From IMG/VR virus record IMGVR_UViG_3300030085_003448, positions 1 to 32,394 of that record: 32,394 nt of DNA; one strand, 5' to 3'. Origin of the DNA: a virus. This document shows, one piece after another, positions 9,124-32,205 of the stretch. The translations under genes were made by a program, and so were the position numbers. Under the pieces are notes generated by a model, which had not been told where the DNA came from, searched no databases, and was given only the letters and a program-made list of their open reading frames with translations. How positions within the stretch are numbered: position 1 is the stretch's first letter; each line of letters begins with the position of its first letter.

Positions 9124-12100
9124 ATGTCTGGAAAAGAAATCGTAGCTAAACTGAACCAACAGATTGGACCATCGGCTCAGGCCTACTACAAAAAAGTCCA
9201 GGGTGATTTCGATTCCGCACTGAGGCGCGCTGATCAACTTGATCGTCAGATTGCGCGACTGACACAGTATCAGCTTTCGTATTCAGGGAAAGGTTCAAGA
9301 AGCCAGAGAGATGCTGACAAACGACTTCTTGGATCCTACACGAGGCTGCAACAAAAAGATGGGAAAGACGTAAAGAAGTGGAATGATCGGAGTAAAGCTG
9401 CGCTGCTAAAGCTTCAAAAAACAACTAACGATCACGTCTCAGAGGCCCAAGCCGCCGTTGGTGGTGATGAAGCAAAAGGTACTTTTGATAAGGCAATAAC
9501 AATGCCTGAAAAGTTCATAGGTGAGCTGAACGAGCACCTTGCGACTTCTGGATTGCTTCCAAAAACGGGTAAACCAAAAAAGGTTGATTTTGCTTTAATT
9601 CATGCGTATGCCATCGCCAGACAAAGGATTGATCAATCGAAGGATGTGACCGAGGAAAACAAGAAAAAGATTAAGGATCAGATTGATGCTGAGGTTGCTA
9701 AACACTTCAAAAACATGAGGTCTGACGTAGGGCTTACTCAAGAAGCAATTAATCCGAATGTATTGATCAACGACTACGCTCCAATTTTGACCGACAGTAA
9801 AATTGCTGAAGTAATGGCGGATGAAGAGTATCTTCGGCGACTTATTCCTTCAATACCGGAAAAACCGGCAGGAGAAGACTACACGATTGAAATCAACTGG
9901 CTGAAGAGAAGCCTTGGAATGCCGGTTAAAGGGGAATCAAGGCAAGCCCCAGCGGCAGCAATGCAAGCCCCAGCAGCTACGGCTCCGGTTGAAGAAAAAC
10001 AGAAGTACATCGGCCCTGGGCTAAAGATAGATGGCGACAACGTAACCGTGGATGATTCACAGCCTGCCGAGGTTCAGGCGGCAGTAATGGACTCTTTGAA
10101 GGCCAAAAGCATTCAGGTTCCTATTTCTTACAGCAAATACGTTCAATCGCCAGCAGTTGTTGCGGCAACGCTTGATCCATCAAAAAGCAGCACTGATTAC
10201 CAAGTTGAGATTGATAAGCTGAAGGCGCGTCGTGATCAGATTCTAGAATCGGCAGCCCGTGGTGGACGCGTCTCTAAAGAACAACTGGCATCGCTGACCC
10301 ACCCTGTACTTGCGGTTGCTGGCTTTCGAGATGCGCTCGATGTCGACATTCCTATCGAGCAGCAATTTCCACAATTGTTTGGTACTGCTCAAGAAGAAAG
10401 CGCAGGCCTTACTGACGAAGAAATCATGGGCCCAGACGAGCCCGATGATGGCCTTATGCCTGATCGAATGGATATTTCACCGTCAGGCCTGAAGGCGGGT
10501 GAACAATTTGATCCGTCTTCTGTTGAGTATAAAGAATCGACCAGTGTTAATCATGCTGGTGAGAACGTAATTGGCGCTGTTGTAAATCGATTTAAGAATG
10601 CAGCAAACCCCAATAGCGACACCGACCCCACAGACATTCTTAACGATTTTGGGCTTCTCCCTGAAGACGTGAAGAGAATGTTTCCAGTTGATCTTCAAGA
10701 GAAAATGTTGGATATCGCTCAAGGGGTAAACATGAAGGGCGGTGGCCCAGATGAAAAAAGAGCGGCGTTGAAAAATTTGCTGGTCGAGTATCAAGGCCAG
10801 TTGGATACGATTATTTCCGAAGATCAGCGATCAGTCTCACACTACGTGACGACAATTGATCAATCAAATCTTTTGAACCCAGATACTATTGAAGTAATTG
10901 AATTGATTAACTTTCTGAATCACCCTGGATCACTTCCAGAAGGCCATGAGGTTCGTCCAGAAAACGTTCAGAGGCAAGTCTTAGGTGATGCTGGCTCAAA
11001 GTTTATTGATGCTGGTTTTGGGTCTTTTGATCCTGATGCCGATCCTGTCGAATCGCCTGTGTCGCTTTCCAGCATTATTGAGCAGGCCCAAGAGTCCATC
11101 ACTGGCGAAGAAATCAAAGTTTCAGATGAGCCCGATGATGACTTTATGCCTGATCGAATGGATACTTCACCGTCTGGTTTAACGGTGGCAACGTCAAGCA
11201 AACGATTTGATCCAACGTCATTTACTGCGAGCAGCCCTGGTGAGTTGGATTTGATTCGATTTGTTACAGGGGGCGCAATATCAGGCAAGCCAGCCTTCAT
11301 TCCAAGTGAAACTCCACTGGTTACCGGTGATACTATTGCTACAGGGCCCATGCAGCCATCGGTCACTGAGCAACTGGCAGCAAGAGGGGAAATGCCTAGT
11401 GGGGGTCGGGCCTATACCCTCAAAGAGTTGGACGATCTTAAAAAAGCGAAGGAGGCCGTTGCCGACGCTCTTTACCGTGGAGATCCAGACGTTTCCTCAT
11501 TGATGAATGAATACACAATCAATGCTGAAATGTTGGGCTTGAAGGATGAAAAAATATCATTGGATGACTCACCATTGAAACGGCAAGCAGACCAAAAGAA
11601 AGCCGATGAGGCTGCTGTGGCTGCAGCCCAAGAGCCTGCTGCGCCTGCTGTAGCTGCAGCACCCAAGGCAGCACCCAAGGCAGCACCCAAGGCAGCACCC
11701 AAACCACCAACCGCACCCAAGGCAGCCCCTAAGGCTGCTCCTGCGAAACCAAGCTATCGTGGCCTCATAGACCTTACGCCATCAGAAATGGATCTCTGGA
11801 AGAGAACAACAGCCGCATTGAAAGACTACGCTGTTCGTACAAATTTGCGCGGCCAGAATATGTCGAAGGTTATACTTCAAACTAGAGAACTGGCTTCAAA
11901 GCTTAATCTAAATCCAAAAACTGGAGATAAAGCATTTGAAGACATCTATTATTCAACTGATTTGGGTAAAAGTGACCCTGAGTACGCTTCATATCTAGAA
12001 GAAACGGGCGTCAAAACAGAAGAGCCGAAAACCCAAGTTGCTGGCGGCCTCGTCGTTCCAGAAGAGGGCGGCAACCCGGCTGCCCCTGCTCCTGAAATGA

Positions 12101-12642
12101 TTTCTGATGAGCAGGATAGGCGAAACAGGGCTATTTTAGCTGAGCCCATGGCTGAAAAAGCACCTGAAAAATTGTATGCAGTTCGGCCGACTGATCCCGA
12201 CAGTGAAGGCAGATTAGTCATTACGTCACTGTACGGTACTAGAGGCGACGGCGAGCACGAAGGCATAGACCTCAGGGCGAGAAAAATTGATGGTAACACC
12301 AATGTGTATTCTGTAATGGATGGCACAATATCTGCTGTACAATCAGAGCCAGTCGGCGGGGCTGGCCGATATGTATACGTTTCTCATGAGGATGGTACTC
12401 AAACAAGATACTTCCATGGGGAAAACATTCCTGAAAATATTAAAGTCGGCAATCGTGTATTGGCTGGTGATTTAATTATGATTGCGGGTGAAAGTGGAAA
12501 CTCGAAAGGTCCCCATCTTCACTTTGAAATTGGTCGTGTAGTTGATGGAAAATTTGAATCTGCAGACCCAATGGTTGAACTTCCAGAAGTTTTTAATCAG
12601 TATGAGCTTGATGAAGACCTTATTTTGAAATCTACCTTTTAG
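9124..12642 (+). CDS. Large virion protein with C-terminal M23 endopeptidase
   Basis: A 1172-residue protein. The C-terminal domain (about residues 1030-1155) is a LytM/M23-type zinc endopeptidase with all expected ligands: HEGID with His1045 and Asp1049, YFHGEN, and PHLHFE with His1131 and His1133. M23 enzymes cut peptide cross-bridges of peptidoglycan. Carried on a large ejection-module protein, this would open the cell wall locally during DNA entry. The N-terminal 200 residues are helical and charged. The middle is low-complexity and acidic. A motif DEPDD..MPDRMD..PSGL occurs twice exactly 230 residues apart, and residues about 835-875 are an Ala/Pro/Lys linker (KAAPKAAPK). A neighbouring giant gene 14 bases downstream supports an ejection complex. 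The M23 call is secure; the virion location is inferred from position. Confidence 0.8.
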   Translation: MSGKEIVAKLNQQIGPSAQAYYKKVQGDFDSALRRADQLDRQIARLTQYQLSYSGKGSRSQRDADKRLLGSYTRLQQKDGKDVKKWNDRSKAALLKLQKTTNDHVSEAQAAVGGDEAKGTFDKAITMPEKFIGELNEHLATSGLLPKTGKPKKVDFALIHAYAIARQRIDQSKDVTEENKKKIKDQIDAEVAKHFKNMRSDVGLTQEAINPNVLINDYAPILTDSKIAEVMADEEYLRRLIPSIPEKPAGEDYTIEINWLKRSLGMPVKGESRQAPAAAMQAPAATAPVEEKQKYIGPGLKIDGDNVTVDDSQPAEVQAAVMDSLKAKSIQVPISYSKYVQSPAVVAATLDPSKSSTDYQVEIDKLKARRDQILESAARGGRVSKEQLASLTHPVLAVAGFRDALDVDIPIEQQFPQLFGTAQEESAGLTDEEIMGPDEPDDGLMPDRMDISPSGLKAGEQFDPSSVEYKESTSVNHAGENVIGAVVNRFKNAANPNSDTDPTDILNDFGLLPEDVKRMFPVDLQEKMLDIAQGVNMKGGGPDEKRAALKNLLVEYQGQLDTIISEDQRSVSHYVTTIDQSNLLNPDTIEVIELINFLNHPGSLPEGHEVRPENVQRQVLGDAGSKFIDAGFGSFDPDADPVESPVSLSSIIEQAQESITGEEIKVSDEPDDDFMPDRMDTSPSGLTVATSSKRFDPTSFTASSPGELDLIRFVTGGAISGKPAFIPSETPLVTGDTIATGPMQPSVTEQLAARGEMPSGGRAYTLKELDDLKKAKEAVADALYRGDPDVSSLMNEYTINAEMLGLKDEKISLDDSPLKRQADQKKADEAAVAAAQEPAAPAVAAAPKAAPKAAPKAAPKPPTAPKAAPKAAPAKPSYRGLIDLTPSEMDLWKRTTAALKDYAVRTNLRGQNMSKVILQTRELASKLNLNPKTGDKAFEDIYYSTDLGKSDPEYASYLEETGVKTEEPKTQVAGGLVVPEEGGNPAAPAPEMISDEQDRRNRAILAEPMAEKAPEKLYAVRPTDPDSEGRLVITSLYGTRGDGEHEGIDLRARKIDGNTNVYSVMDGTISAVQSEPVGGAGRYVYVSHEDGTQTRYFHGENIPENIKVGNRVLAGDLIMIAGESGNSKGPHLHFEIGRVVDGKFESADPMVELPEVFNQYELDEDLILKSTF
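10411..11180 (+). repeat. Two copies of an acidic 27-residue motif, 690 bases apart
   Basis: Nucleotides 10411-10490 and 11101-11180 encode near-identical motifs: (T)(D/G)EEI...DEPDD..MPDRMD.SPSGL, followed by FDP(S/T)S. They are spaced exactly 690 bases (230 codons). The DNA itself is still highly similar (for example CCCGATGATG and TGATCGAATGGATA in both), so either the duplication is recent or both the motif and its codons are constrained. Confidence 0.85.
11656..11703 (+). repeat. 12-base tandem repeat, Ala-Pro-Lys linker
   Basis: GCAGCACCCAAG occurs in four tandem copies; the last copy ends in A. More diverged copies run to about 11748. It encodes KAAPKAAPK-type linker sequence inside the M23-containing protein, a flexible Pro/Ala/Lys spacer. 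Perfect DNA-level repetition makes slippage-driven length variation likely. Confidence 0.9.
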
Positions 12643-12656
12643 GAAGCAGCGGTTAA

Positions 12657-15600
12657 ATGGCAGAACAGGACGATAATACAGTAGAGCCTCCACTTGAGTT
12701 TGACTACGGCGGCTTGCCTGCTGGTGCTTATCAAGAGGGCGTTCCTCCCGGCTATGCACGCGAAGATGTATTCAGCCTTGATAAGCCTGTTGAGTATGCT
12801 CAAGAAGACCGAGATATTGCTGCTAATGCTGCTTATAATTCAGTTTATGGGGTTGTTTCTGAAGAACATCCAGAAGCGGATCATTCTGAGCTTAGGCAAA
12901 GAACGCTCGCTGCGCTAGGTGGCCGAAAGTATGTTCCTGGTCAAACCTATGGAGAAGAACAATACGTTTTTGGTGATCCGCTTGACTCAAACTTAGTTTT
13001 TGCTCCATCAGTTGGTCAGATGGTTCCTAGAACGGGAGCACTTGGAACCATTCCGATTTACAAAATGCAAGAAGAGGCGTCAGCTAATGCCATGAAGGGC
13101 ATGAGGTTTGATCAGCAGGTAAGGCACATGTTGTTTGCTGATCCAAGCCCAGAAACCATGATGACTTTGAAGCAGGCTGTAGACCAGCGTTTAGTTGATT
13201 CTGAGGGAAACATTGTTCGACCCCCTTCTGTTGAAGAGCGGGAGTACATGCCCGACAATGAAACATTGAGGCAAGCTGCTACTTATGTTGCGGGCGCAGG
13301 CGTTGGCTTGGGCGCGGTTGGTGGGTTGGCCGTCTTGGGTCCCGCAGGGGCCGTAGCTGGAGGCCTTCTTGGTGGCATGGTTGGCTCCGGCATTGGAACC
13401 ATTGGCGTTATTGGTGCTGCTGGATTTTCATCGATGCCAGAAGATTACACGGGGTTTGATGGCCTTCAAGACCTTGTAAAGCGAACCTACACTTTGATTG
13501 GGTTTGGTGACGATTTAGCTGGATTTATGGCAACATCAGCACCCGAAGCAAGAGACCTAATGGTTACGAATGTAGTTGCTCTTGCGGAAGGCCTTGGTAT
13601 TGCAAAATCTAATGAATGGCTTGAAGAAAACAAAATTACCAAGCTCGACGACATTTCAAAAAAAGGATCAGAATCCATAAAAGCCATCGAAAAAGAGATT
13701 GCAAAAGACTTTATTCCAGTTGGCCCTTCAATTAATCCAACGTTTCCATTAATGCCAGAGCTTGGTGAGGGAACTATAAGAAAAACTGTAGAAGAAATTG
13801 GTGACAATTTTATTTTAGGGTTGCACGAAATTATAGACGAAATTGGTCGCAGCGATGAATACAAATCTATGCGGTCCCAAGTTCGTAAAGAATTTATGAT
13901 GGAGAAAGAGATTGAGTACGATTTACTTTCTCGAAAAACAAAGCCGACCGATGAAGATTGGCTCGGGTTGAATCTCTTCAATCAAGTATCAGAAGGTATT
14001 GCAACGGAAGAAGACATTAAGCCACAAGTTTCTGGTTGGATCGACAACATGTCGTTCAATAGGCTGCATCCATCATTGCAGGGCGAAATGCCCAATGTTC
14101 AAGTGTTTAAAACGCTTGCCATAACGATTCCTCCAAATCATTCGATGTTCAGCAAAGACATGCCGCCAAATGTTGCCGCTGCAATTCTGGCCGTGCATGA
14201 TGGCCGATCTGACGATGAAATACAGAATCTTGTAAATACGTTGCCGCTTGGTTTTCTACGAAACTCGCCTGGGTTCGATGTTGTAATTGAGAAAAGCTTG
14301 CCAGACTTCGAAAAGGTAAAAGAGTGGGCTACTGACACCAACACCTTCTTGGATGAAAAAACCGGCGCTAGAATTACTCGCATTTTTGAGCGTGAGGCCT
14401 TTGATCTTACACAGGTTCCCGTCTACATGGAGGGCCATGGAACGCTGTACAAGCGGTCAAAAAACGCTGAAATTATGAACTGGGCGGCAAGTATTGTAAC
14501 CGCGCTCAATGAAATTGAGATTGATCTTATTCCTGAGTTTCTTGAGCCTTTGGCGCGAAATCTCGGATATCCGAATGACCTGTACGTTCCCAACTCGGCT
14601 GGATTAGATCGGCAAATGCAGCTTGGCATCAGGGACTACAATTTGCCGTACTTGGTAAAACTTGATGCTCGAATAAAGAGTGGATTGGGTGGCCCTCATC
14701 TTGGAATGCAGGAAGTTGCACGAGCCCTTGGACACAACCCAGATTCGTTTGCGTACAACTTCTTGTCTGCGTACGGCTTCGCTCTTGAAAACTTTAATTG
14801 GGAAAGAAGCATTCTGGGTGGCGCTGCTCGCGCTGGTCGAACTCTTTGGAATGTTCCGTACGCATACACAGGGTTTAAGGCAGCAGCGCCGGGCTACAAG
14901 CTCAGAGCAGCAAAACAAAATCTTCTTACCAATGTGTCGAAAGATTCATCTATTGATCCAGTCGCTGCCCAACATAGACTGTTCGAAGAAATTCTTCTTG
15001 CTCAGATGAACAAGGGTGCCAATCCACTTCAGGACTATGACAAGAAAACAGGCGTGGGTATCTCTACGGCTCAAAAGCAATTGCTGACCGACATGATGGA
15101 GATTGCTGGAATTGAGCCTGAAGTGGTGTTTGCTGCTTTTCGAGAGGCTTCTGGCGATACAATCAAGTTGACGGCTGCTACAGAAGAGCTTGTTCGCAAG
15201 CTTGGCGACAACCAGGTGATGGTTTTTCGGTCGTCAGAGCAATACGGCAGGCTTCACTCTCAGCTTAATGAGATGGTCAATGAGGGCCTGATTTCACCCA
15301 ATGATGCTTCTGTGTTTTTGGCCCAGATCGAAACTCAAGCGTTCAAGGCGGCCAACTCTCCGAACACACGGTTTTATAGTGCGACGGAGGTTATCGACGG
15401 CCTTGAGCTTCGTATCGATCGGGGTATTGACGAGCAAGAAACCAGATTGTTTTTAAATGCGCCAGAGGGTGACAATCGGTTTACTGCCAGAGATGGCATC
15501 TTGCGGTCTTCGTTCGAATATGACGAGAACACCGGAAAGCGCGTCATCAGTTTGTTTACTCGTGGAGACATGGGTGACCTGTGGTCGGCCAATGCTGACT

Positions 15601-18600
15601 TTATGAATTCATTGATGGGTCAAAAGTTCAGCCAAAAGTTGATTGGTATGTTTGATCACGAAGTTGATGACAACGGTGTTCGTCGATTGACTGCTACAGG
15701 TGCTGAACAAATTGGAGATAGTTGGCAGTATTACCGAAGGGTCAAAGATCTTCCAAACGGCTATGTTGCCCGACTGTTCGATGAGTTGTGGATTACTCTT
15801 CACAACTTTTGGAGCAGGCTGCGCAAGCAGCGAGGCGTTCTACCGAAGCAAGTTCGTCAGTTTTGGGACGCCGAGTTTGGCGAACTTCCAAAGGATCGTA
15901 GATTTGTCGAAGGCCTTGTTGATGCTGCTCGGCGCAAGAAAGGTAAAACCATTGTCGTCCCCGGTGATGAACTTGCAGAAGCTCAGCAGGCTAGGCCCAG
16001 AAAAGTAGGAATGGAGCGCGTTGCTCGTCAAGTAGCCATGGATCCCGATACATTGAGGTCTTTCCTTGGTCAGAAGACGCTCACAAGAGTAGAAGTTCGA
16101 ACTGATCCTGAAACTGGTGTGCAGACCCGCATTCCTCGTCGAGTGTATGCTGATTTTAATTATGATCCGCTGGATGTTGGCCGAAAGCTGTTGGCTTTAA
16201 TTAAAGTTCAGCCATACAGAAAAATGATTGCCGAAAGAAGCACTGCGACAATTGGTACTGGCAAGTACGCTGTTCCTGTTCACCGTGTAGGCGCTGTTCT
16301 GGAGGCGGCCAAGCGACGACTGACCGATGCTTTGGGGAGCCTTCCTGACAACCTTAAAAGCAGGATGTATCAACGCAATTATCAAAAATCGGACAAAGGC
16401 TTCACTGAACTTAATAACTTGCAGGACGTAACTGAAGCTGACATCAATGCTTTTTCTGAGCGCATTCGGATGGAGGCCGGTCTTCCGCTTCATTCGAAAT
16501 TTCAAGATGTGCTTGAAGAAATTATAAACACTACTGAGTTTATTGTTCTCAATGCTCGTGAGCGTGCTGGCTTTAAAACGCTTGTCCAAGAGTTGGCTGC
16601 AAATCCAGCCGGTGACCCCATTCCATCGTCCCTGCTTGATCCAAACGCAAATTTAAAAATAATCAGCATTGCTGAGTACAACAGGGTTTTACAGGTCGCA
16701 CAAGACATAGAGGCCAACCCATTAAATCGGATCGATCGAAACTCTGTTCATCCTGGCTATTATCAAACAGTTATAAGATCGCTCAAAAAGCGCAGCGTTA
16801 CAGCTTTGTTTGGGCTTTTAGTTGAAAAAGTCGCGCCATTGTTTGAGGCACAAGCGGCAAGAATCAATAAGAAAAACGCTGACCCGGCCCTTGTAGCTGT
16901 CTGGGAGCAGGGAATGCGCAGGCTTGCAGCATCACCCGATGAAATTGCCAAGGCTGCTGAAAGCGGAAAAGACAAAGACTTCTTTGATTTCTACCAAAGA
17001 ATGGTTCACAGCTTTACCCCGAGAGTGGCCCTTAACAACCTCAAGTCTCTATTTGATATTGTAGATGAGCTTGAGGGCAACAAGAAACGTCTCGATGCGG
17101 ATGCACTCGCTGCGATTCGTGAAGCGGAAAAAGAAGGCACTCCGCCTCCGCTTCAATTTGGATCACTTGATGAGTTTGATATTGGCGTACTATACAAAAA
17201 ATTAAACTTCATTCAAGAAGTGTTGGATGGATTTTACGGAATGACTCGCCAAGAGCGAGTTGCAATTACCAATCTTCGTGAATTGTCTGAGCGTCGGTCT
17301 GGTCTGACGGAGGCTATGTCTAATGCAGATGCTGCGATTGCCGCCGATGCGCTGCAGATTTTGCATACAGGTCTGGCCGAAAAGAAACATTACGTAACAC
17401 GAACTGCTCGTGAAATAATGCGTCGAGCAACAGGATATACAGACCCAGAACTTCCTGCAGGATTCGACAACAGCACAGTAATAGATATTTATGTTGCTCT
17501 GTATACAGGAAATATAGTAAGATTAAAAGCAATAGCGACCCGAATGGGATTCGAGGGCACTTGGCAGGCTAATCTTGTAAATTTGTTTGGTACAAGAGGA
17601 GAAAAGCTTCTGCGCGAGTTTGGCGACACTGAGGCCATGCTTACGAATGTATTGATCTACATGAAAGTCGATGAGGTCATGTTCGGCATCGCAAAAGATT
17701 TAGCTGATCTTGGATACAACACATCCGTGAGAGAACTGATTGGTCGGCAAGTAGAAAGTGGTGTTCCTAGTCTTGATCGGCAAAAGTTCCTTGATCGAGT
17801 GGCCGAGTACATTAACGATGAGATGCAATTCCAAGTAGGAAACGTTGTCGGGGCCGGTAGGCTCAAAAAAGGTGAAAAGATTTCGCCTGCCGAAAAATTT
17901 GGCCCACTGGACAACCCTCATCGCACTGATTTGGATTCCGGTATTATTTCGAAAATGGACCGCGATGCCAAGGCCGAAGCTGCAAGAATCGTTGATCGCC
18001 TGGGACTTCGCAGAGAGATGGGCCAGTTTGCTCGTGTTCTTGTTGGTGATGATACGTTTTTGTTGCCAGAGGCCATGATTGAGGGCCTGAATGATGCAAT
18101 CAATGCAACGTATAATATGCCTTCCGGGTTTCAGACTTTATTTAGAGACTTTGGCCGAACCGGCACCGTCGAGTATCGTCTTAACTCAGAAAATATTTTG
18201 CCGGTAAAGGTTCAAAAATTAAGAGAAATTCTGACAATGTCCAAGAAAGCTGTTGAGCTTATTGCTCATCCAAGAGTTTTTTATAGGCGTTTGTTGATTG
18301 GTGTCGGCGGAATCCCAATGGTTCCCTATATGGCTAGTCTGTTTGTAGGAGGATTAAGCGAAATCCATCTTCCACAAGGCGCAAAAGCCGTAGTTGACAA
18401 TGTTGTTGGAGCAGTTCAAACGCCTGCAATGCTGGCAGCAAATAAGCTAAGCGGTCAGCGTGTTGATTTTGTAGCCGGTGTTCTTGCTCGATTGTATGGT
18501 AACGGATCATACAGGCCACTCACTCGTCCACACGTAACTCCTGATGGTCGAATTTTTACAGCAGACATGGTTGCTAACAATGTTGATGCGTACGGATTTA

Positions 18601-20096
18601 AAACCGCATTTGCAGAAATGACTGCAGACCCAAACGTCCACAGGCGTATTTTGGATGAGTTTACGAAAGCAAATCCAAAAGAAACTGCAGCGCAAATCGG
18701 TGGAACCATTGGTGGTCTTCTTGGTGCAGTTTTAGGTCCAACAATGGCAGCCAAGGGTGCGGCAGCAGGCGCTGCAGGGGGAATAACTCTTGGGTGGTTG
18801 CTGACTGAAAACAACGCATTTGACAAAGCGCACAGGTTTTATCGCGAAGTTGCAATCACCATTGATACATACCAGCGACTCAAAGTGTTCATGAAGGAGT
18901 TGGATTCCGGCCTTGATATTCCAGCAGCCTCGAAACGAACGCTTGAAACCAAACTTGACTATGGAAATATGACTAAAACTGAGATGAGCTATTTTCGAAT
19001 GGCCTTCGCGTTTTGGACATATTTCGCTCAAGCAAATGGTTTGTTTGCGCGAAGCATTATTGAAAATCCAGATCGAGTAATCGCACAACTTAAGCTTGCT
19101 CGCTCAAGCCAAATAGCTGTGACCAAGGGCCAAGATCCAGACCGTGCGCTTGCGCCGTGGGATCGTTCCAGAATTTTCATTCCGTTTGAAATTGGTGGAC
19201 ATGCTGTTCGTCTTCCGTACACAAGTGTGGCGGACACCGTTCAACTGTTTATCGACTTCTTTGGTTTTTTTGGAATTGGATTTGGCCCAGAAGAAACGAC
19301 AACTGCACGAATGGCGGTCGTCAACCGGTTAAATCCACACCTTATCGAGGCGTTTAAGCAGACGTACAAAATGGATCCAGGCAGAGGATACGACCTCGAA
19401 CGCGCCACCATGCAGGTTCCAGCATCATTAATTCAGTTGGATTACGACATTACTGGTGGGGTTTTGTGGGAAATGCTGGACATTAAATATGTCGAATACG
19501 ACGATTTGAAAAAGGGTTGGGGTTTTGATGAAAACACGGGTGTTCGATTCAACCCGAACAACTTGGAAATGCCTGGCCGTGGTATTTATGTAGCTCAAAA
19601 CGCAGCGGCGTACAGCCTACTCATGGGCCTTGCTCAAACGCCGGTTACGGGTCGAATGGGCCGACTCTTTGAGGCTTTTGATCGATCGAATCTTGGACCT
19701 GTAGAGGCAGGAATGAAAGCTGCTGATGTGTACTACCAGGCAGATAAAGAGAAGCCTTTGTTGGCCCGCGTACCGTTCATGACTGAACTCGGCCTTGTAA
19801 AAGGAAGGCGCACCTCTGGGCTTAAGCGACCATCCGATTATGGTATTGGTGGATTAGACACTTCTACTGGTCGCAGATCTATGAGAGAGTATGCTCGACA
19901 TATTGAGCCAGACGGAACTTCTTATATTTTGCCATACGATGATTTTTACCCACTGCCTTTATTGAAGATTTTTGGGGCCTCTGCTGTTTTTATTCAGCCA
20001 GAAGAGCGCAGTACAAACAGAAGCCTTAGAAAACAAACTACTGAGATTGAGAAAAATATAGAGCCTGCTATCCGTAAAGCTAAACTTCAAGAGTAA
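12657..20096 (+). CDS. Giant (2479-residue) internal/ejection protein
   Basis: A single uninterrupted 2479-residue reading frame, the largest gene in the window. An acidic Tyr/Gly-rich N-terminus precedes a glycine-zipper hydrophobic segment at about residues 209-257 (GAVAGGLLGGMVGSGIG). A long helical body follows. A second hydrophobic region near 1880-1910 (PMVPYMASLFVGG) and a third near 2005-2040 (GGTIGGLLGAVLGPTMAAKG) precede the motif LDYGNMTKTEMSYFRMAFAF, then WTYFAQANGLFARS (about 2100-2135). That last stretch resembles the DY..lt..E......FpFytw.r.n pattern I know from very large phage polyvalent/ejection proteins. T7 gp16 (1318) and N4 virion polymerase (about 3500) are the known position counterparts. 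I could not see the single-subunit polymerase motifs, so polymerase identity is unsupported. It is probably ejected with the DNA and crosses the envelope. Confidence 0.68.
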   Translation: MAEQDDNTVEPPLEFDYGGLPAGAYQEGVPPGYAREDVFSLDKPVEYAQEDRDIAANAAYNSVYGVVSEEHPEADHSELRQRTLAALGGRKYVPGQTYGEEQYVFGDPLDSNLVFAPSVGQMVPRTGALGTIPIYKMQEEASANAMKGMRFDQQVRHMLFADPSPETMMTLKQAVDQRLVDSEGNIVRPPSVEEREYMPDNETLRQAATYVAGAGVGLGAVGGLAVLGPAGAVAGGLLGGMVGSGIGTIGVIGAAGFSSMPEDYTGFDGLQDLVKRTYTLIGFGDDLAGFMATSAPEARDLMVTNVVALAEGLGIAKSNEWLEENKITKLDDISKKGSESIKAIEKEIAKDFIPVGPSINPTFPLMPELGEGTIRKTVEEIGDNFILGLHEIIDEIGRSDEYKSMRSQVRKEFMMEKEIEYDLLSRKTKPTDEDWLGLNLFNQVSEGIATEEDIKPQVSGWIDNMSFNRLHPSLQGEMPNVQVFKTLAITIPPNHSMFSKDMPPNVAAAILAVHDGRSDDEIQNLVNTLPLGFLRNSPGFDVVIEKSLPDFEKVKEWATDTNTFLDEKTGARITRIFEREAFDLTQVPVYMEGHGTLYKRSKNAEIMNWAASIVTALNEIEIDLIPEFLEPLARNLGYPNDLYVPNSAGLDRQMQLGIRDYNLPYLVKLDARIKSGLGGPHLGMQEVARALGHNPDSFAYNFLSAYGFALENFNWERSILGGAARAGRTLWNVPYAYTGFKAAAPGYKLRAAKQNLLTNVSKDSSIDPVAAQHRLFEEILLAQMNKGANPLQDYDKKTGVGISTAQKQLLTDMMEIAGIEPEVVFAAFREASGDTIKLTAATEELVRKLGDNQVMVFRSSEQYGRLHSQLNEMVNEGLISPNDASVFLAQIETQAFKAANSPNTRFYSATEVIDGLELRIDRGIDEQETRLFLNAPEGDNRFTARDGILRSSFEYDENTGKRVISLFTRGDMGDLWSANADFMNSLMGQKFSQKLIGMFDHEVDDNGVRRLTATGAEQIGDSWQYYRRVKDLPNGYVARLFDELWITLHNFWSRLRKQRGVLPKQVRQFWDAEFGELPKDRRFVEGLVDAARRKKGKTIVVPGDELAEAQQARPRKVGMERVARQVAMDPDTLRSFLGQKTLTRVEVRTDPETGVQTRIPRRVYADFNYDPLDVGRKLLALIKVQPYRKMIAERSTATIGTGKYAVPVHRVGAVLEAAKRRLTDALGSLPDNLKSRMYQRNYQKSDKGFTELNNLQDVTEADINAFSERIRMEAGLPLHSKFQDVLEEIINTTEFIVLNARERAGFKTLVQELAANPAGDPIPSSLLDPNANLKIISIAEYNRVLQVAQDIEANPLNRIDRNSVHPGYYQTVIRSLKKRSVTALFGLLVEKVAPLFEAQAARINKKNADPALVAVWEQGMRRLAASPDEIAKAAESGKDKDFFDFYQRMVHSFTPRVALNNLKSLFDIVDELEGNKKRLDADALAAIREAEKEGTPPPLQFGSLDEFDIGVLYKKLNFIQEVLDGFYGMTRQERVAITNLRELSERRSGLTEAMSNADAAIAADALQILHTGLAEKKHYVTRTAREIMRRATGYTDPELPAGFDNSTVIDIYVALYTGNIVRLKAIATRMGFEGTWQANLVNLFGTRGEKLLREFGDTEAMLTNVLIYMKVDEVMFGIAKDLADLGYNTSVRELIGRQVESGVPSLDRQKFLDRVAEYINDEMQFQVGNVVGAGRLKKGEKISPAEKFGPLDNPHRTDLDSGIISKMDRDAKAEAARIVDRLGLRREMGQFARVLVGDDTFLLPEAMIEGLNDAINATYNMPSGFQTLFRDFGRTGTVEYRLNSENILPVKVQKLREILTMSKKAVELIAHPRVFYRRLLIGVGGIPMVPYMASLFVGGLSEIHLPQGAKAVVDNVVGAVQTPAMLAANKLSGQRVDFVAGVLARLYGNGSYRPLTRPHVTPDGRIFTADMVANNVDAYGFKTAFAEMTADPNVHRRILDEFTKANPKETAAQIGGTIGGLLGAVLGPTMAAKGAAAGAAGGITLGWLLTENNAFDKAHRFYREVAITIDTYQRLKVFMKELDSGLDIPAASKRTLETKLDYGNMTKTEMSYFRMAFAFWTYFAQANGLFARSIIENPDRVIAQLKLARSSQIAVTKGQDPDRALAPWDRSRIFIPFEIGGHAVRLPYTSVADTVQLFIDFFGFFGIGFGPEETTTARMAVVNRLNPHLIEAFKQTYKMDPGRGYDLERATMQVPASLIQLDYDITGGVLWEMLDIKYVEYDDLKKGWGFDENTGVRFNPNNLEMPGRGIYVAQNAAAYSLLMGLAQTPVTGRMGRLFEAFDRSNLGPVEAGMKAADVYYQADKEKPLLARVPFMTELGLVKGRRTSGLKRPSDYGIGGLDTSTGRRSMREYARHIEPDGTSYILPYDDFYPLPLLKIFGASAVFIQPEERSTNRSLRKQTTEIEKNIEPAIRKAKLQE

Positions 20097-27128: not shown

Positions 27129-27419
27129 ATGGAAGCTAAGGATCTTGTTGTTCCTGGTCTGACAATCATTTTTGCTGCTGGGGCAGCCTTTGCTTCTTTT
27201 GAGTCTGCGGCACAAGATGTAGAGGATGTTGAAAAACGTGTGACTGTTCTCGAATCGAATGTCAGCAAACAAGAGGTTGTTGATGTCAAGATCGAGGGTA
27301 TTGAACAACGTCTGGACAAGATGGAAGATATTGTTCAAAAGATGCTGGATATTCAGCAGAAGCAAGCGGTTAACGTCGCTCAAATCTGCCAAGCCACCAA
27401 CGCCAACTGTAGTAACTAA
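27129..27419 (+). CDS. Single-pass membrane coiled-coil protein
   Basis: 96 residues from ATG 27129, with GGTGGGGG upstream of the start. The frame extends back to 27084 inside the previous gene, but that start has no ribosome site. A hydrophobic helix VPGLTIIFAAGAAFASF (about 8-24) precedes heptad-like helices (VEDVEKRVTVLESNVSKQEV and IEGIEQRLDKMEDIVQKML). The C-terminus contains two Cys (ICQATNANC). It resembles small phage membrane coiled-coil proteins of unknown detail and is the second of several such proteins here. It may work with the preceding gene in host lysis. Confidence 0.5.
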   Translation: MEAKDLVVPGLTIIFAAGAAFASFESAAQDVEDVEKRVTVLESNVSKQEVVDVKIEGIEQRLDKMEDIVQKMLDIQQKQAVNVAQICQATNANCSN

Positions 27420-27420
27420 A

Positions 27421-27996
27421 ATGCGTCCGTTGATTCTCGATTACGTTGCGTCTCTTGGGTACACTGTGTTTGAGTCAGGTGAGTACAACCTGAACATCAT
27501 TGGAATCCGAAGCAGGGACCACAAGGCTAACAGCTTCGACGATCGCATCTGTGTTGTCTTTAAGGACGAGCAGGGCTGGGTCACACGTACTTGGGAATGC
27601 ACGACAGAGCCGGGTAAATACTGGCTTGAACACCCCACGAACGTCAACGGCACTGCTATTCTGGTACCTGGTCAGTATAGATCTGTTTGGAAGATCGACA
27701 AGCACCAAGGGAAGTACGATGCCCTCTGCCAGAGAAACGGCACAGTCAAGACTTACAGAGATAGCAATAAAGACGATGTTGTTGACCTTGATGTACAGTC
27801 TATTACTGAAGGCTATTACGGAATCAATATCCACAAGGCTGGATCCGCGTCAACGCAAGTAGACAGGTGGTCTGCTGGGTGCCAAGTGTTTAGCAAAAGT
27901 GCTGACTTCGAAGAGTTCATGAGCATCTGTTACGCGGCCCGAGAAAAATGGGGCAATAGTTTTAGTTATACGCTGATTGACGAACCGGAGTTTTAA
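27421..27996 (+). CDS. YkuD-like (His...SxGC) protein, candidate endolysin/envelope enzyme
   Basis: 191 residues from ATG 27421, one base after the previous stop. The open frame extends to 27259, but that part is antiparallel-frame shadow of the preceding gene. The catalytic-looking core is GYYGINIHKAG (His138) followed after a short interval by DRWSAGCQVF (Ser151, Gly153, Cys154). This is the His-(12-17)-SxGC arrangement of YkuD/L,D-transpeptidase-fold enzymes. Upstream conserved-looking segments are NIIGIRSRD, PGKYWLEHP and GTAILVPGQY. I associate this whole layout with a phage protein family seen next to lysis genes. No other endolysin is visible in the window apart from the virion M23 domain, and the flanking genes are membrane coiled-coil proteins. 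Peptidoglycan cleavage is an inference. Confidence 0.55.
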   Translation: MRPLILDYVASLGYTVFESGEYNLNIIGIRSRDHKANSFDDRICVVFKDEQGWVTRTWECTTEPGKYWLEHPTNVNGTAILVPGQYRSVWKIDKHQGKYDALCQRNGTVKTYRDSNKDDVVDLDVQSITEGYYGINIHKAGSASTQVDRWSAGCQVFSKSADFEEFMSICYAAREKWGNSFSYTLIDEPEF

Positions 27997-28950: not shown

Positions 28951-29321
28951 TTGAACTTGCTCTAATTTTTTTCGGGACGTTTGTCGTTCTTCCTGCAGGA
29001 TTGAGTTTTGCGGTAGACGGTGATGGTCGTGATCGAAAAAAGAAAGCAGCGCCTGTCGTGGAAGAGCCAGTAATTGAAGAGCCCCTGCCTGAGCCTGAAC
29101 CGATCCTTGTGGCAAGACTAAAATCGACAAAAAAGACTGTTGTGACCGTCGTTCCAGAATGCTCTGATGAGGAATCCGAAACAAGGTTGCGCGCTGCCAG
29201 TCTTGACTACTTGGAAAAAGTTACCGGACTACCTGACGAGACTGTATTTGAAGTGCAGGATTGTGGCGACGAAGGTATGGTAGACATTCAAATCGTCGAA
29301 ACGATAGAAAAAATAAACTGA
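28947..29321 (+). CDS. Exported Pro/Glu-rich small protein
   Basis: 124 residues overlapping the upstream stop (ATGA). A hydrophobic start IELALIFFGTFVVLPAGLSF (2-21) acts as signal or anchor, followed by basic residues (RDRKKK). A Pro/Glu run PVVEEPVIEEPLPEPEP (about 36-52) reads like the extended periplasm-crossing linkers of TonB-type proteins. The C-terminal 65 residues form a small folded domain with two Cys (PECSDEES, VQDCGDEG) that could form a disulphide after export. It closes the rightward run of late genes. It probably works with the preceding gene at the envelope; the exact function is unknown. Confidence 0.48.
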   Translation: MIELALIFFGTFVVLPAGLSFAVDGDGRDRKKKAAPVVEEPVIEEPLPEPEPILVARLKSTKKTVVTVVPECSDEESETRLRAASLDYLEKVTGLPDETVFEVQDCGDEGMVDIQIVETIEKIN

Positions 29322-29392
29322 CCCCCCGCACCCGGTAGGAATCGCCCATGCTCACGCCCCGAGATGGGACAGACGATGTGGGTGACGGGGGG
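29305..29392 (-). terminator. Convergent terminator with 12-bp stem, leftward
   Basis: CCCCCCGCACCC (29322-29333) pairs with GGGTGACGGGGGG (29380-29392) with one bulged A, giving a 12-bp G/C stem. An inner CCCAT (29345-29349) / ATGGG (29364-29368) stem lies in the loop. Reading leftward, the stem is followed by TCAGTTTATTTTTT (29318 down to 29305), a U-rich tail beginning about three bases after the stem. Reading rightward, no T-run follows. It therefore best terminates the leftward DUF2589-like pair. It lies partly in the 3' end of the rightward gene at 28947-29321. Confidence 0.55.
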
Positions 29393-29403
29393 CCAGGGGG
29401 AGT

Positions 29404-30003
29404 CTAAGCTTTCTTGGCTGCTACAGGTGTAGGCGCAATAGCGTCATTAAGCATGTCCAGAACCTTCATGAGGCCTTCTGGTGGTCCGTCATCACGCGCA
29501 ACCACCTTCACATCGTACTTGGCGCTGTTGTCGCTGCTACGGCTATTCTCGCTGTGGTTAGCCACAGAGCCGTGTACGGTGACCTCGCAAGAGAACAGGC
29601 CAGCGTTGTACTTGGCCTTGGCAGTAAGATCGGCCTTGCTATCTGACGTAGTCTTACTCGATGTGGAGGACTTGACCTCCATGGTGAAGCGCACTTCGGC
29701 TTCTTTGACCGAGAGTGCCGGTGTGTTGATGATGGCGAGTAGCGGAACCTGGAGGTCCACTTTTTCCATCGTCGTGTTCCCGGCAGCGTCTTGTACAGGT
29801 TTGTTGAATCCAAAGTCAACGGTACGGGCAGACAGGTTGCCTTTGCCATCGTCGTTCAGACCAACGTCTTTGATGAAGTCGCTGGACGCCTTCGCAAGCA
29901 GTGTCTGAGCGTTACAAGCAGCCTTGAGTGGACCACCAATGAGTTGTTCCATTGGAAGGCCACCAAACTGTGATGACATTTGTACGAGGCCGGAATCTGC
30001 CAT
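29404..30003 (-). CDS. DUF2589-like protein
   Basis: 199 residues on the minus strand with AGGAGAG before the ATG. The N-terminus QFGGLPMEQLIGGPLKAACN, then AQTLLAKASSDFIKDVG, closely fits the signature of DUF2589 proteins: LP.e.LIGgPL.Aa..AQ.l.A....FI..VG. A beta-rich middle (VDLQVPLLAIINTPALSVKE, then AEVRFTMEVK) and a PPEGLMKVLDMLND C-terminal segment complete the match as I know it. DUF2589 function is unknown. It is the second gene of a leftward pair whose partner also ends in a PPEG(L/Y) segment. The genes converge on the lysis-like cluster. The assignment is by eye. The sequence appears intact and has no signal peptide. Confidence 0.6.
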   Translation of the reverse strand: MADSGLVQMSSQFGGLPMEQLIGGPLKAACNAQTLLAKASSDFIKDVGLNDDGKGNLSARTVDFGFNKPVQDAAGNTTMEKVDLQVPLLAIINTPALSVKEAEVRFTMEVKSSTSSKTTSDSKADLTAKAKYNAGLFSCEVTVHGSVANHSENSRSSDNSAKYDVKVVARDDGPPEGLMKVLDMLNDAIAPTPVAAKKA

Positions 30004-30012
30004 GATGCTCTC

Positions 30013-30507
30013 CTATGGAAGCAGTTTGATTAGCTGGTCGTCGATTCTTGCATAACCTTCTGGAGGCTCACTGCCTTTGAAGATCAGCTTGAGTTTAGCA
30101 GCATTGTTCTCTTTTTTGAACCACGATGGCGTATTGGCGCATGGCCGAACCATCAGCTTGCCTTTCTTCTTGTCCGACGTAAGCCCAGAAATCTCAACAG
30201 ACATCTCCACTTCAAGCGTATCAACACGCAAGCTTTGCCCCGTTGTGAGCGACTGGATCGGGACCGGAACTCTTTTTTGTACCAGTACTCCATCTTCCCA
30301 TGTTGGGAGTTCCATGACGACCATGCGAGGTACATAAATGGGCCTTCCGTCGTCATCTGTAATGGGGTCACCTTTTTCATCTGTCTTCAACTCCCAGAAC
30401 TCTTCATTGGTGATGGAATCAAGTTCGTGACGTTCTGCAATATCAGTCGCAGCTATAACCGCTGATTGTATGGAATGTACTATGTCATCTAATGAATGAT
30501 CAGGCAT
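30013..30507 (-). CDS. DUF2589-associated partner protein
   Basis: 164 residues on the minus strand with TTGGAG five bases ahead of the ATG. The N-terminal helix (SLDDIVHSIQSAVIAATDIA, then ERHELDSIT) has the form of small helical starts I associate with partners of DUF2589 genes. Beta strands follow (VPRMVVMELPTWEDG, VPVPIQSLTTGQSLRV, VEMSVEISGL). The C-terminus GSEPPEGYARIDDQLIKLLP echoes the PPEGLMKVLD end of the downstream gene, suggesting distant paralogy. Nine bases separate the two genes. Its start is only 34 bases from that of the rightward gene at 30542, so the two are transcribed divergently. Function unknown. Confidence 0.5.
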   Translation of the reverse strand: MPDHSLDDIVHSIQSAVIAATDIAERHELDSITNEEFWELKTDEKGDPITDDDGRPIYVPRMVVMELPTWEDGVLVQKRVPVPIQSLTTGQSLRVDTLEVEMSVEISGLTSDKKKGKLMVRPCANTPSWFKKENNAAKLKLIFKGSEPPEGYARIDDQLIKLLP

Positions 30508-30541
30508 GCTATCTCCAAGTTATTATTTATCAGGTGGTTCG

Positions 30542-30961
30542 ATGCGTCAGTTCCTAAAAGCGTACAAGGACATCCTGGTTTACCATGACTACGGTCCACT
30601 TCTTTTGTTTTGGAACATAGCGGACTTGGCCAACAATCGCGTGCTTTGGATGAGCTACGGTGAGGCCATAGATAACGGGATGGAGTGGGCCTACTTTCAG
30701 TACTCTTTGTACTTTGTAGTTGCGCTGGGAATGTTGTTTAGTCTTCCAAATATTCGTTCATGCTCACGCTTTGTTGGTGTCTATCTTCTTCTCTACATTT
30801 TTTCTACCACCCGTTTCTTGGTGAACGTGTTCAATGACCCCGAGTTTGCCGCTGGTGATGTTGGACGCAGCCTTGTTGTGACGGGCGTCTACTTTACCTT
30901 GTGGGTTTGGATATACGTTAAAATGCGTATGGAAGTAATGCACAAGGATCTCCGTGGATAA
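30542..30961 (+). CDS. Multi-pass membrane protein
   Basis: 139 residues from ATG 30542, with CAGGTGG at 30530-30536 upstream. An earlier in-frame ATG at 30506 overlaps the start of the minus-strand gene and is less likely. Three clear hydrophobic helices: FQYSLYFVVALGMLFSL (about 53-69), FVGVYLLLYIFSTTRFLV (about 78-95) and LVVTGVYFTLWVWIYV (about 111-126). The cytoplasmic-looking ends are basic, and the protein ends with KMRMEVMHKDLRG. Size and topology are compatible with a class I holin, but the family is not recognised. The start of the next gene lies inside its last codons. Confidence 0.5.
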   Translation: MRQFLKAYKDILVYHDYGPLLLFWNIADLANNRVLWMSYGEAIDNGMEWAYFQYSLYFVVALGMLFSLPNIRSCSRFVGVYLLLYIFSTTRFLVNVFNDPEFAAGDVGRSLVVTGVYFTLWVWIYVKMRMEVMHKDLRG

Positions 30962-31259
30962 GCCGACTACTGCTGCCGCTATTGTTGCTGCCGTTACCGG
31001 CCTGGTCAGTGCAGGTGCGTTTAAGTTTTATGAGTTCATGCTGAAGCAAAAGAGAGAGAAGCAAGTAGAAGAAAAGGCTGAGCAGGCGCTATACCGTGAC
31101 GACCTCATCAAACGAGTTGAAAAACTCGAACAAGAGCGTGATGAGCACCTTCAGCAAATTATCGACCTGATGACCGACATTGCGGGACTGAAAGTAGAAG
31201 TCGACTACGTCAAACGCGAGAACGAAATCTTGAAGCTCAAGATCGATGCTATGAGGTGA
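30954..31259 (+). CDS. Membrane-anchored coiled-coil protein
   Basis: 101 residues from GTG 30954, with AAGGA before it and an eight-base overlap with the upstream gene. A short hydrophobic helix (AAAIVAAVTGLVSAGAFKFY, about 7-26) precedes a basic stretch and a long coiled coil with good heptads (VEKLEQERDEHLQQIIDLMT and VDYVKRENEILKLKIDAM). It has the same architecture as the gene at 27997, but little visible sequence identity. It pairs with the multi-pass membrane protein upstream, resembling a holin/spanin-type couple. Its end overlaps the convergent small zinc-ribbon gene by 11 bases. Confidence 0.5.
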   Translation: MDKPTTAAAIVAAVTGLVSAGAFKFYEFMLKQKREKQVEEKAEQALYRDDLIKRVEKLEQERDEHLQQIIDLMTDIAGLKVEVDYVKRENEILKLKIDAMR

Positions 31260-31362
31260 TTGGTTCGCCTGGGCCTTCACACTCTGGACAGTTCAGTTCT
31301 CCGAACCAAATGTGTCCACACTCAATACAGCAACGCCTAAAAAGTTCAATCACCTTTGCCAT
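31249..31362 (-). CDS. Hidden 37-codon zinc-ribbon protein
   Basis: A minus-strand frame from ATG 31360-31362 to TAG 31249-31251. Its translation contains CIECG (from residue 12), GHIWFGELN and CPEC. This is a four-Cys C-x2-C-x9-C-x2-C zinc knuckle, unlikely to arise by chance. It overlaps the 3' end of the FmdB-like gene by 17 bases and the 3' end of the rightward gene by 11. A GGA lies upstream of the ATG. It is short and probably missed by length cut-offs. The likely role is a small metal-stabilised module, perhaps a cofactor of the FmdB-like neighbour. The reading was made base by base. Confidence 0.6.
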   Translation of the reverse strand: MAKVIELFRRCCIECGHIWFGELNCPECEGPGEPITS

Positions 31363-31540
31363 TTTTCAATCCGTAGTTGTCCCTGGCCCAGCCGCTACCT
31401 TTGAGGGTGAAGTTAGTGGCACAGATTTTTCTCGTCATATCAGAAGAGCACTGCAAGCATTCAGGGCTTGGATCCCCAAATGCTTGCAGCACTTCTTTCT
31501 TTTCGCCGCACACTTCACAGACAAACTGATACAACGGCAT
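31346..31540 (-). CDS. FmdB-like zinc-ribbon protein
   Basis: 64 residues on the minus strand. MPLYQFVCEVCGEKKEVLQA has the FmdB opening (MP.Y.y.C..CG). A second Cys pair ECLQCSSD completes a C-x2-C/C-x2-C zinc ribbon, and FTLKGSGWARDNYG is the typical FmdB C-terminal motif. FmdB proteins are small putative regulatory proteins found in bacteria and in phages; function in phages is unknown. Its stop overlaps the hidden zinc-ribbon gene, and it starts six bases after the end of the 219-residue gene, so the two are probably co-transcribed leftward. Confidence 0.75.
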   Translation of the reverse strand: MPLYQFVCEVCGEKKEVLQAFGDPSPECLQCSSDMTRKICATNFTLKGSGWARDNYGLKNGKGD

Positions 31541-31545
31541 CGTAT

Positions 31546-32205
31546 TTAGTCGTTAAATACAACAGGCTCAGGCTCTACATCTACTTCTGGCGTTGTCTTC
31601 TCAGGAGTAACTGTAGTTTGCTTCGTTGCGTTTGATGCGAGTGCCCCGACAAGTTGCTTAATCATGTCCTTAAGATCAGAATCGTCTGTGTTCTTTGAAG
31701 ACAAGGCTTGAATGACTTCTTCTGGAATGGGACTGTTTGTCACATTCACAGTGGTGGTAACCGGAACTCCGTTCTGGTAGGAGAGTTCAGTCGCGTTTTC
31801 AATGTCGACGAACTTGACTACAAAAAAGACTTGCTCAATGTTGTGGTCATCTTTTTCGATCTTCACGTCGTGATCGACGATTTCCCACGTTCCGTTTGGT
31901 TGACTGTTTCTGATGGTCTTAAGCATTCCATTAATGGCGCTGTTGACAATGTTTGTCCAACCATCCTCGGTAACCTTTCCTTGCAGCAAGTGAAGTCCCC
32001 AGTGGCAGTCTCCGAGACGGGTCCGAAACTCAGAGCATTCTTTAGCTTTAGCTTTCGAGATCTTTCGTTCGTCGACGACCTCGTTCAGCATGCGCAGAAA
32101 AATCGATGTCTGGTTGATGTACGAAACAGTGTTGTTTTTGCTAGCGGTCTCTGTACGGGCACCGAATGGATTGCGCGCTTTTTGTGCTTCATCGAAAAGA
32201 TTCAT
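31546..32205 (-). CDS. Unknown 219-residue protein
   Basis: 219 residues on the minus strand with CTGGAG seven bases before the ATG. The N-terminal half is helical: YINQTSIFLRMLNEVVDERK, LGDCHWGLHLLQGK, NIVNSAINGMLKTIRNSQ. A central beta part carries charge and hydrophobic alternation (VFFVVKFVDIENATE). The C-terminus is a disordered, acidic Thr/Pro/Glu tail (VTPEKTTPEVDVEPEPVV). No signal peptide, membrane helix or enzyme motif was seen. I do not recognise it. It lies between the HNH-like gene and FmdB, in one leftward cluster, and the mixed helix/strand design suggests a DNA- or RNA-associated accessory role only loosely. Confidence 0.5.
   Translation of the reverse strand: MNLFDEAQKARNPFGARTETASKNNTVSYINQTSIFLRMLNEVVDERKISKAKAKECSEFRTRLGDCHWGLHLLQGKVTEDGWTNIVNSAINGMLKTIRNSQPNGTWEIVDHDVKIEKDDHNIEQVFFVVKFVDIENATELSYQNGVPVTTTVNVTNSPIPEEVIQALSSKNTDDSDLKDMIKQLVGALASNATKQTTVTPEKTTPEVDVEPEPVVFND

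Follow-up and report, generated by a model that had tools for sequence, protein, structure and literature searches.

Among described systems, those closest in gene organisation to the locus analysed here are the phage lysis cassettes and type 10 secretion systems made of holin, endolysin and spanin (PMC10847048), where a small non-enzymatic partner stands beside interchangeable murein hydrolases, as it does here. Such holin-endolysin systems are also used outside phages (PMC10847048). The two proteins described below, A and B, differ from them in having no transmembrane helix, their unit includes no spanin-type pair and the lytic role that we propose for it is putative. The aerolysin-like beta-pore formers (PMC9558359, PMC4947156) offer another comparison, in which the likeness consists of a beta core and an alternating Ser/Thr-rich insert with a hydrophobic tip. 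This is a likeness of sequence pattern, with no match in sequence or fold, and A is a protein of 199 aa with flanking helices and no secretion signal. The comparison is a working likeness and not a membership; indeed, on the features tested (transmembrane helices and a solved fold) A and B fall outside both holin systems and beta-pore formers. In Archaeoglobus fulgidus a cluster of short genes related to DUF2589, AF0414-AF0417, is reported to be up-regulated on lactate (PMC3949148). It resembles A and B by description alone, and its presence in an archaeon without murein counts against a role tied to murein hydrolases (PMC3949148). We found almost no literature on DUF2589, a family without assigned function, and none on its Pfam entry PF11655.

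The window, that is the whole stretch of DNA analysed, comprises bases 1-32,394 of a 41,818-base IMG/VR virus record. Gene A (29404-30003, 199 aa) and gene B (30013-30507, 164 aa) both lie on the minus strand, 9 bp apart, and A is preceded by a plausible Shine-Dalgarno sequence, TAGGAG. Their neighbours are an endolysin-like enzyme and coiled-coil or membrane proteins of lysis type, followed by minus-strand genes for RecT, RecE, a helicase and a primase. The endolysin-like cell-wall enzyme (27259-27996, plus strand; phrog_33083 endolysin, E 1.2e-15; phrog_3000, E 1.2e-37) is a conserved neighbour located 1.4 kb from A. The sequence-only reading had described two adjacent leftward genes within a phage late region, next to lysis-like genes, and the two ORFs and the nearby lysis-like enzyme agree with that description. 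By eye, the pattern HK.GS...GC at the C-terminus of the 27259-27996 product resembles an L,D-transpeptidase-type catalytic site. A search of 14 related phage records of 58-75 kb for an integrase gave none, and the lineage is therefore probably lytic.

Both proteins belong to DUF2589, as that reading had also supposed. A matches PF11655 with 149.7 bits (E 1.1e-43; residues 17-187, profile positions 1-153 of 154) and B with 56.3 bits (E 6.3e-15; residues 6-161, profile positions 2-153 of 154), near-full-profile matches above the family cut-off of 23 bits. B is a divergent partner of A that lacks the long insert described below, and the two are homologous by profile-profile comparison (probability 96.7%, E 3.6e-10). 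The predicted PPEGL and PPEGY segments and the LPMEQLIGGPL..AQ signature were present. Searches of PHROGs, NCBIfam and PADLOC gave no match for either protein, nor did a PDB sequence search with the A and B alignments.

AlphaFold models of A and B (mean pLDDT 57 and 64) showed the same topology of a long N-terminal helix, a beta-hairpin, two more strands and a C-terminal helix. In A the N-terminal helix spans residues 18-48 and is followed by the beta core, a Ser/Thr-rich insert of 46 residues and the C-terminal helix. A second hairpin, proposed for residues 112-159 (29527-29670, minus strand) from column hydrophobicity, alternation and length classes in steps of four, is absent from the model, where the insert has a pLDDT of about 27. 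Segments 123-132 and 137-147 of the insert alternate between hydrophobic and polar residues (permutation p 0.008 and 0.004) around a Gly/aromatic tip, and Ser and Thr make up 34% of the insert versus 12% of the rest of A. Among 52 diverse A proteins the anchor-to-anchor distance across the insert is mainly 54, 58 or 66 residues; 47 of the lengths are even and 42 belong to the series 50/54/58/62/66 while a control segment was irregular, a pattern that we take as descriptive, since the sequences share ancestry. A step of four corresponds to two residues added per strand, which is why we read the insert as a probable long beta-hairpin, either membrane-entering or an assembly arm. No transmembrane helix is apparent in either protein, the 19-residue mean hydropathy peaking at 1.12 for A and 0.94 for B, and inspection by eye revealed no apparent signal peptide. 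Foldseek searches with these weak models gave no PDB match at E <= 0.001 and found solely a viral homologue, A0A516MP19, 39% identical.

Relatives of A and B are encoded in at least 189 and at least 103 viral stretches, respectively. Related loci were fetched through the endolysin gene so that non-carriers were included, which gave 66 loci with sufficient sequence. The pair lies 0.5-1.9 kb downstream of the endolysin gene in 37 of them, every time on the opposite strand; of the other 29, four have the pair at a different place in the record and 25 have it nowhere, these 25 including records of 54-72 kb and possibly incomplete ones. Two loci (L313 and L315) showed a clean empty site, where a plus-strand lysis gene is followed after 81 bp by the homologue of 31546-32205. 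The A-B pair is an accessory unit. The proposal of a self-contained phage accessory unit holds for its accessory status, through presence/absence and empty sites, and needs amending otherwise: the unit extends beyond two genes, with a zinc-ribbon gene 0.84 kb upstream as a member in most relatives, and it is not confined to phages because cellular operons are widespread though uncommon.

This third gene (31346-31540, minus strand) encodes a 64 aa protein of the Zinc_ribbon_8/FmdB family, with 43 bits to PF09723 over a cut-off of 34.4. A longer, spurious plus-strand ORF (31256-31549) overlaps it. In the endolysin set 20 of the 25 loci with A and 1 of the 26 without A have the zinc-ribbon gene, a contrast that partly reflects shared ancestry since the two groups are also unequal in RecT and RecE (23/25 versus 7/26). 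In the window it is separated from B by two plus-strand genes (30506-31259; ORFs 30506-30961 and 30954-31259), the former with a membrane-protein-like product and the latter with one membrane segment and a coiled coil by eye. These intervening genes are found in 52 of 129 loci with the pair and in 7 of 25 in the endolysin set. In 25 loci without them, some redundant, the zinc-ribbon gene and B overlap by 4 bp or lie 5 bp apart, which suggests zinc ribbon, B, A as the ancestral order, and the zinc-ribbon gene is apparently the third member of the unit. Within PF11655, the combination of canonical and divergent tandem members with a zinc ribbon is a feature of the present unit.

Between the convergent units, 3' of A on the minus strand, lies a GC-rich hairpin with a U-rich tail (29318-29396; -48.4 kcal/mol, z -3.2), missed by a simple terminator scan owing to its long inner arm. 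The minus-strand U-tail would suit termination of B-A transcription. In 41 distinct copies of this 79-nt element 99% of the predicted pair cells are intact, sequence conservation is very high and two-sided changes occur at just two positions. It is present in 25 of 38 loci with A and in 3 of 42 without A, empty sites included. Its persistence where the A-B pair is missing leads us to reject the idea of a terminator private to these genes. The element has no Rfam match, is single-copy, and its inner loops are conserved beyond the needs of a plain terminator.

The unit is not restricted to one phage lineage. In phages reached through locus L144, which form groups independent of the window's lineage, 23 of 27 contigs combine A and B, in three gene orders, with a small CxxC...CxxC protein distinct from the window's zinc ribbon. 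Some of these contigs look T4-like, judged by eye from their capsid, neck and sheath genes, and in two of them (L196 and L219) the order A, zinc ribbon, B is found inside the structural module; in L219 it lies 113 bp after a gene that by eye resembles the gp23 major capsid protein. In another group (L204-L210) the unit has a GH24 lysozyme gene about 0.95 kb away.

Cellular carriers of the pair include Vibrio, Shewanella and other genomes. The pair was found in 9 of 398 sampled genomes of one phylum, 3 of 369 of a class, 19 of 296 of an order and 3 of 300 of another order, and includes stand-alone operons with no phage genes around them. All 35 distinct cellular loci have B or a positional counterpart alongside A. 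A conserved protein of 83-144 aa, which we call C1, is present in 16 of these 35 loci and a zinc ribbon in 4. C1 (L138:10653-11012 and homologues) follows the DUF2589 pair, carries the motif YHIGF.RKP.W, has no Pfam match and represents an undescribed family. In a third cellular subgroup the genes after A encode two different conserved proteins, about 230 and 190 aa long (L265:1535-2215 and 2219-2779, and homologues), again with no Pfam matches; homology to B of the positional counterpart in this subgroup, B', was unsupported (hhalign 5.6%).

The sequence-only reading had anticipated non-random gene neighbourhoods across genomes, and cellular pairs do recur beside murein hydrolases. A peptidoglycan hydrolase lies within 1.6 kb of the pair in 14 of the 35 cellular loci, on the same strand in 13 and in some at a distance of only 3-28 bp. 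The enzymes are diverse: Muramidase (L159, L163), GH24 (L162, L183, L254), Pesticin (L141, L256, L187), GH19 (L182, L186, L252), Amidase_3 (L184, confirmed) and, by eye, M15-like (L188, L265). A single match lay farther away (L143, 5.2 kb), and with the queries used no hydrolase was found in the remaining 21 loci of the 35 that lack a near one. The near zone represents 23% of the examined flank, giving a p of about 1e-9 for the linkage, a value biased by the origin of most query enzymes in these same loci; the five enzymes never used as queries were all near (p 6e-4). In an unbiased Pfam scan the top four families among same-strand near genes were GH19, Muramidase, Pesticin and Phage_lysozyme, none of which was among the top 25 families listed at 4-7 kb. 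Since the hydrolases are unrelated while the pair is conserved, it is more likely that the pair provides a step which all these enzymes share than that it makes specific contact with a single enzyme.

These loci give DUF2589 an operon logic: its members come in constant pairs, have a small third partner and are repeatedly linked to peptidoglycan-cutting enzymes. Because the insert of A looks like an amphipathic hairpin and the hydrolases are interchangeable, we tentatively suggest, as a possibility that we rate short of probable, that A and B are a hairpin-bearing, membrane-active partner for exchangeable murein hydrolases. A and B would be the paralogous core subunits of an accessory cassette, with the zinc-ribbon protein and beside lysis genes, and the shared step would be access to the wall rather than inhibition of a single enzyme. 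The insert of A may fold into a long beta-hairpin, amphipathic and with aromatic and Gly residues at its tip; with B and the small partner as scaffold, A could oligomerise and its hairpins be pushed into the membrane, and the resulting beta-lined lesion might let cytoplasmic hydrolases through. In the phage this would add to holin-endolysin lysis or shift its timing, and the integrase result fits such a function during lytic growth; in bacteria the chosen hydrolase would act on the producer, as programmed release, or on its neighbours. Several observations count against membrane insertion: the low pLDDT of the insert and the want of a solved fold leave no structural tie to pore-formers, amphipathic hairpins also serve as assembly arms in non-membrane complexes, most cellular loci gave no near hydrolase, and the T4-like trio follows a major capsid gene. 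The phage's own membrane-protein genes, moreover, could be holins. Should hydrolases from the cytoplasm indeed reach the wall by way of the pair, several phage groups and bacteria would possess an unrecognised alternative or supplement to holins. In a wider view, which we consider unlikely, DUF2589 A and B with a small partner (zinc ribbon or C1) would be soluble beta-hairpin proteins that together act as a holin-like permeabiliser in several phage groups and in many bacteria, with exchangeable murein hydrolases serving lysis, release or killing. The operon logic makes the function of DUF2589 directly testable in E. coli.

The cellular neighbourhoods can also be read differently. A, B and the small partner could serve as adaptor or chaperone, loading effectors, wall-degrading ones among them, onto a delivery route while the effector itself is swapped between strains. 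The neighbours do resemble polymorphic effectors (Pesticin, lysozyme, GH19, muramidase, amidase), L184 has a Tle1-like phospholipase, in our reading of its position and sequence, and a peptidase-domain ABC exporter and an HlyD adaptor adjoin the pair in one Vibrio plasmid. Yet no shared secretion gene recurs near the pair and export would be of little use to a lytic phage, and we regard this explanation as rather doubtful. Dependence on type VI secretion was unsupported: the sheath gene VipB is present in 19 of 34 DUF2589 genomes versus 48 of 119 order controls, leaving 15 carriers without it. The tight linkage to hydrolases might also reflect cytoplasmic inhibitors guarding the producer from the adjacent enzyme, which is highly improbable, as the same conserved pair would need to block enzymes of several unrelated folds and by eye has no apparent signal peptide to reach the periplasm, where the substrate is.

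Other explanations start from the phage. Capsid and tail proteins often have long hairpin arms, and together with the position of the unit in the structural module of the T4-like L196 and L219 this would suit virion or assembly proteins with the hairpin as an assembly arm. We find this quite improbable, given that the unit is dispensable in one lineage (25 records without it), lies here on the strand opposite to the late genes, moves between sites, has no PHROG matches and forms cellular operons outside any phage context. The opposite orientation, presence/absence and site mobility are on the other hand typical of accessory phage genes, and the cassette could hold, in a tolerated site, fitness genes that have nothing to do with lysis, for instance genes for superinfection exclusion or counter-defence. 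This is unlikely: PADLOC gave no match for A, B, C1 or the tested zinc ribbons, and the linkage of the cellular versions to murein hydrolases would be unexplained. Lysogenic conversion in particular is disfavoured by the lack of integrase in the 14 large records.

On the Vibrio plasmid pVDT1 (L161), where the pair stands beside the HlyD adaptor and the exporter, an annotated toxin-like glycosyltransferase domain lies farther away; annotated toxin-like neighbours on Vibrio plasmids were excluded from the family scans. In the window, a plus-strand gene at 12657-20096 encodes a protein of 2,479 aa with nearly no profile matches, located after an M23-type virion protein (9124-12642).
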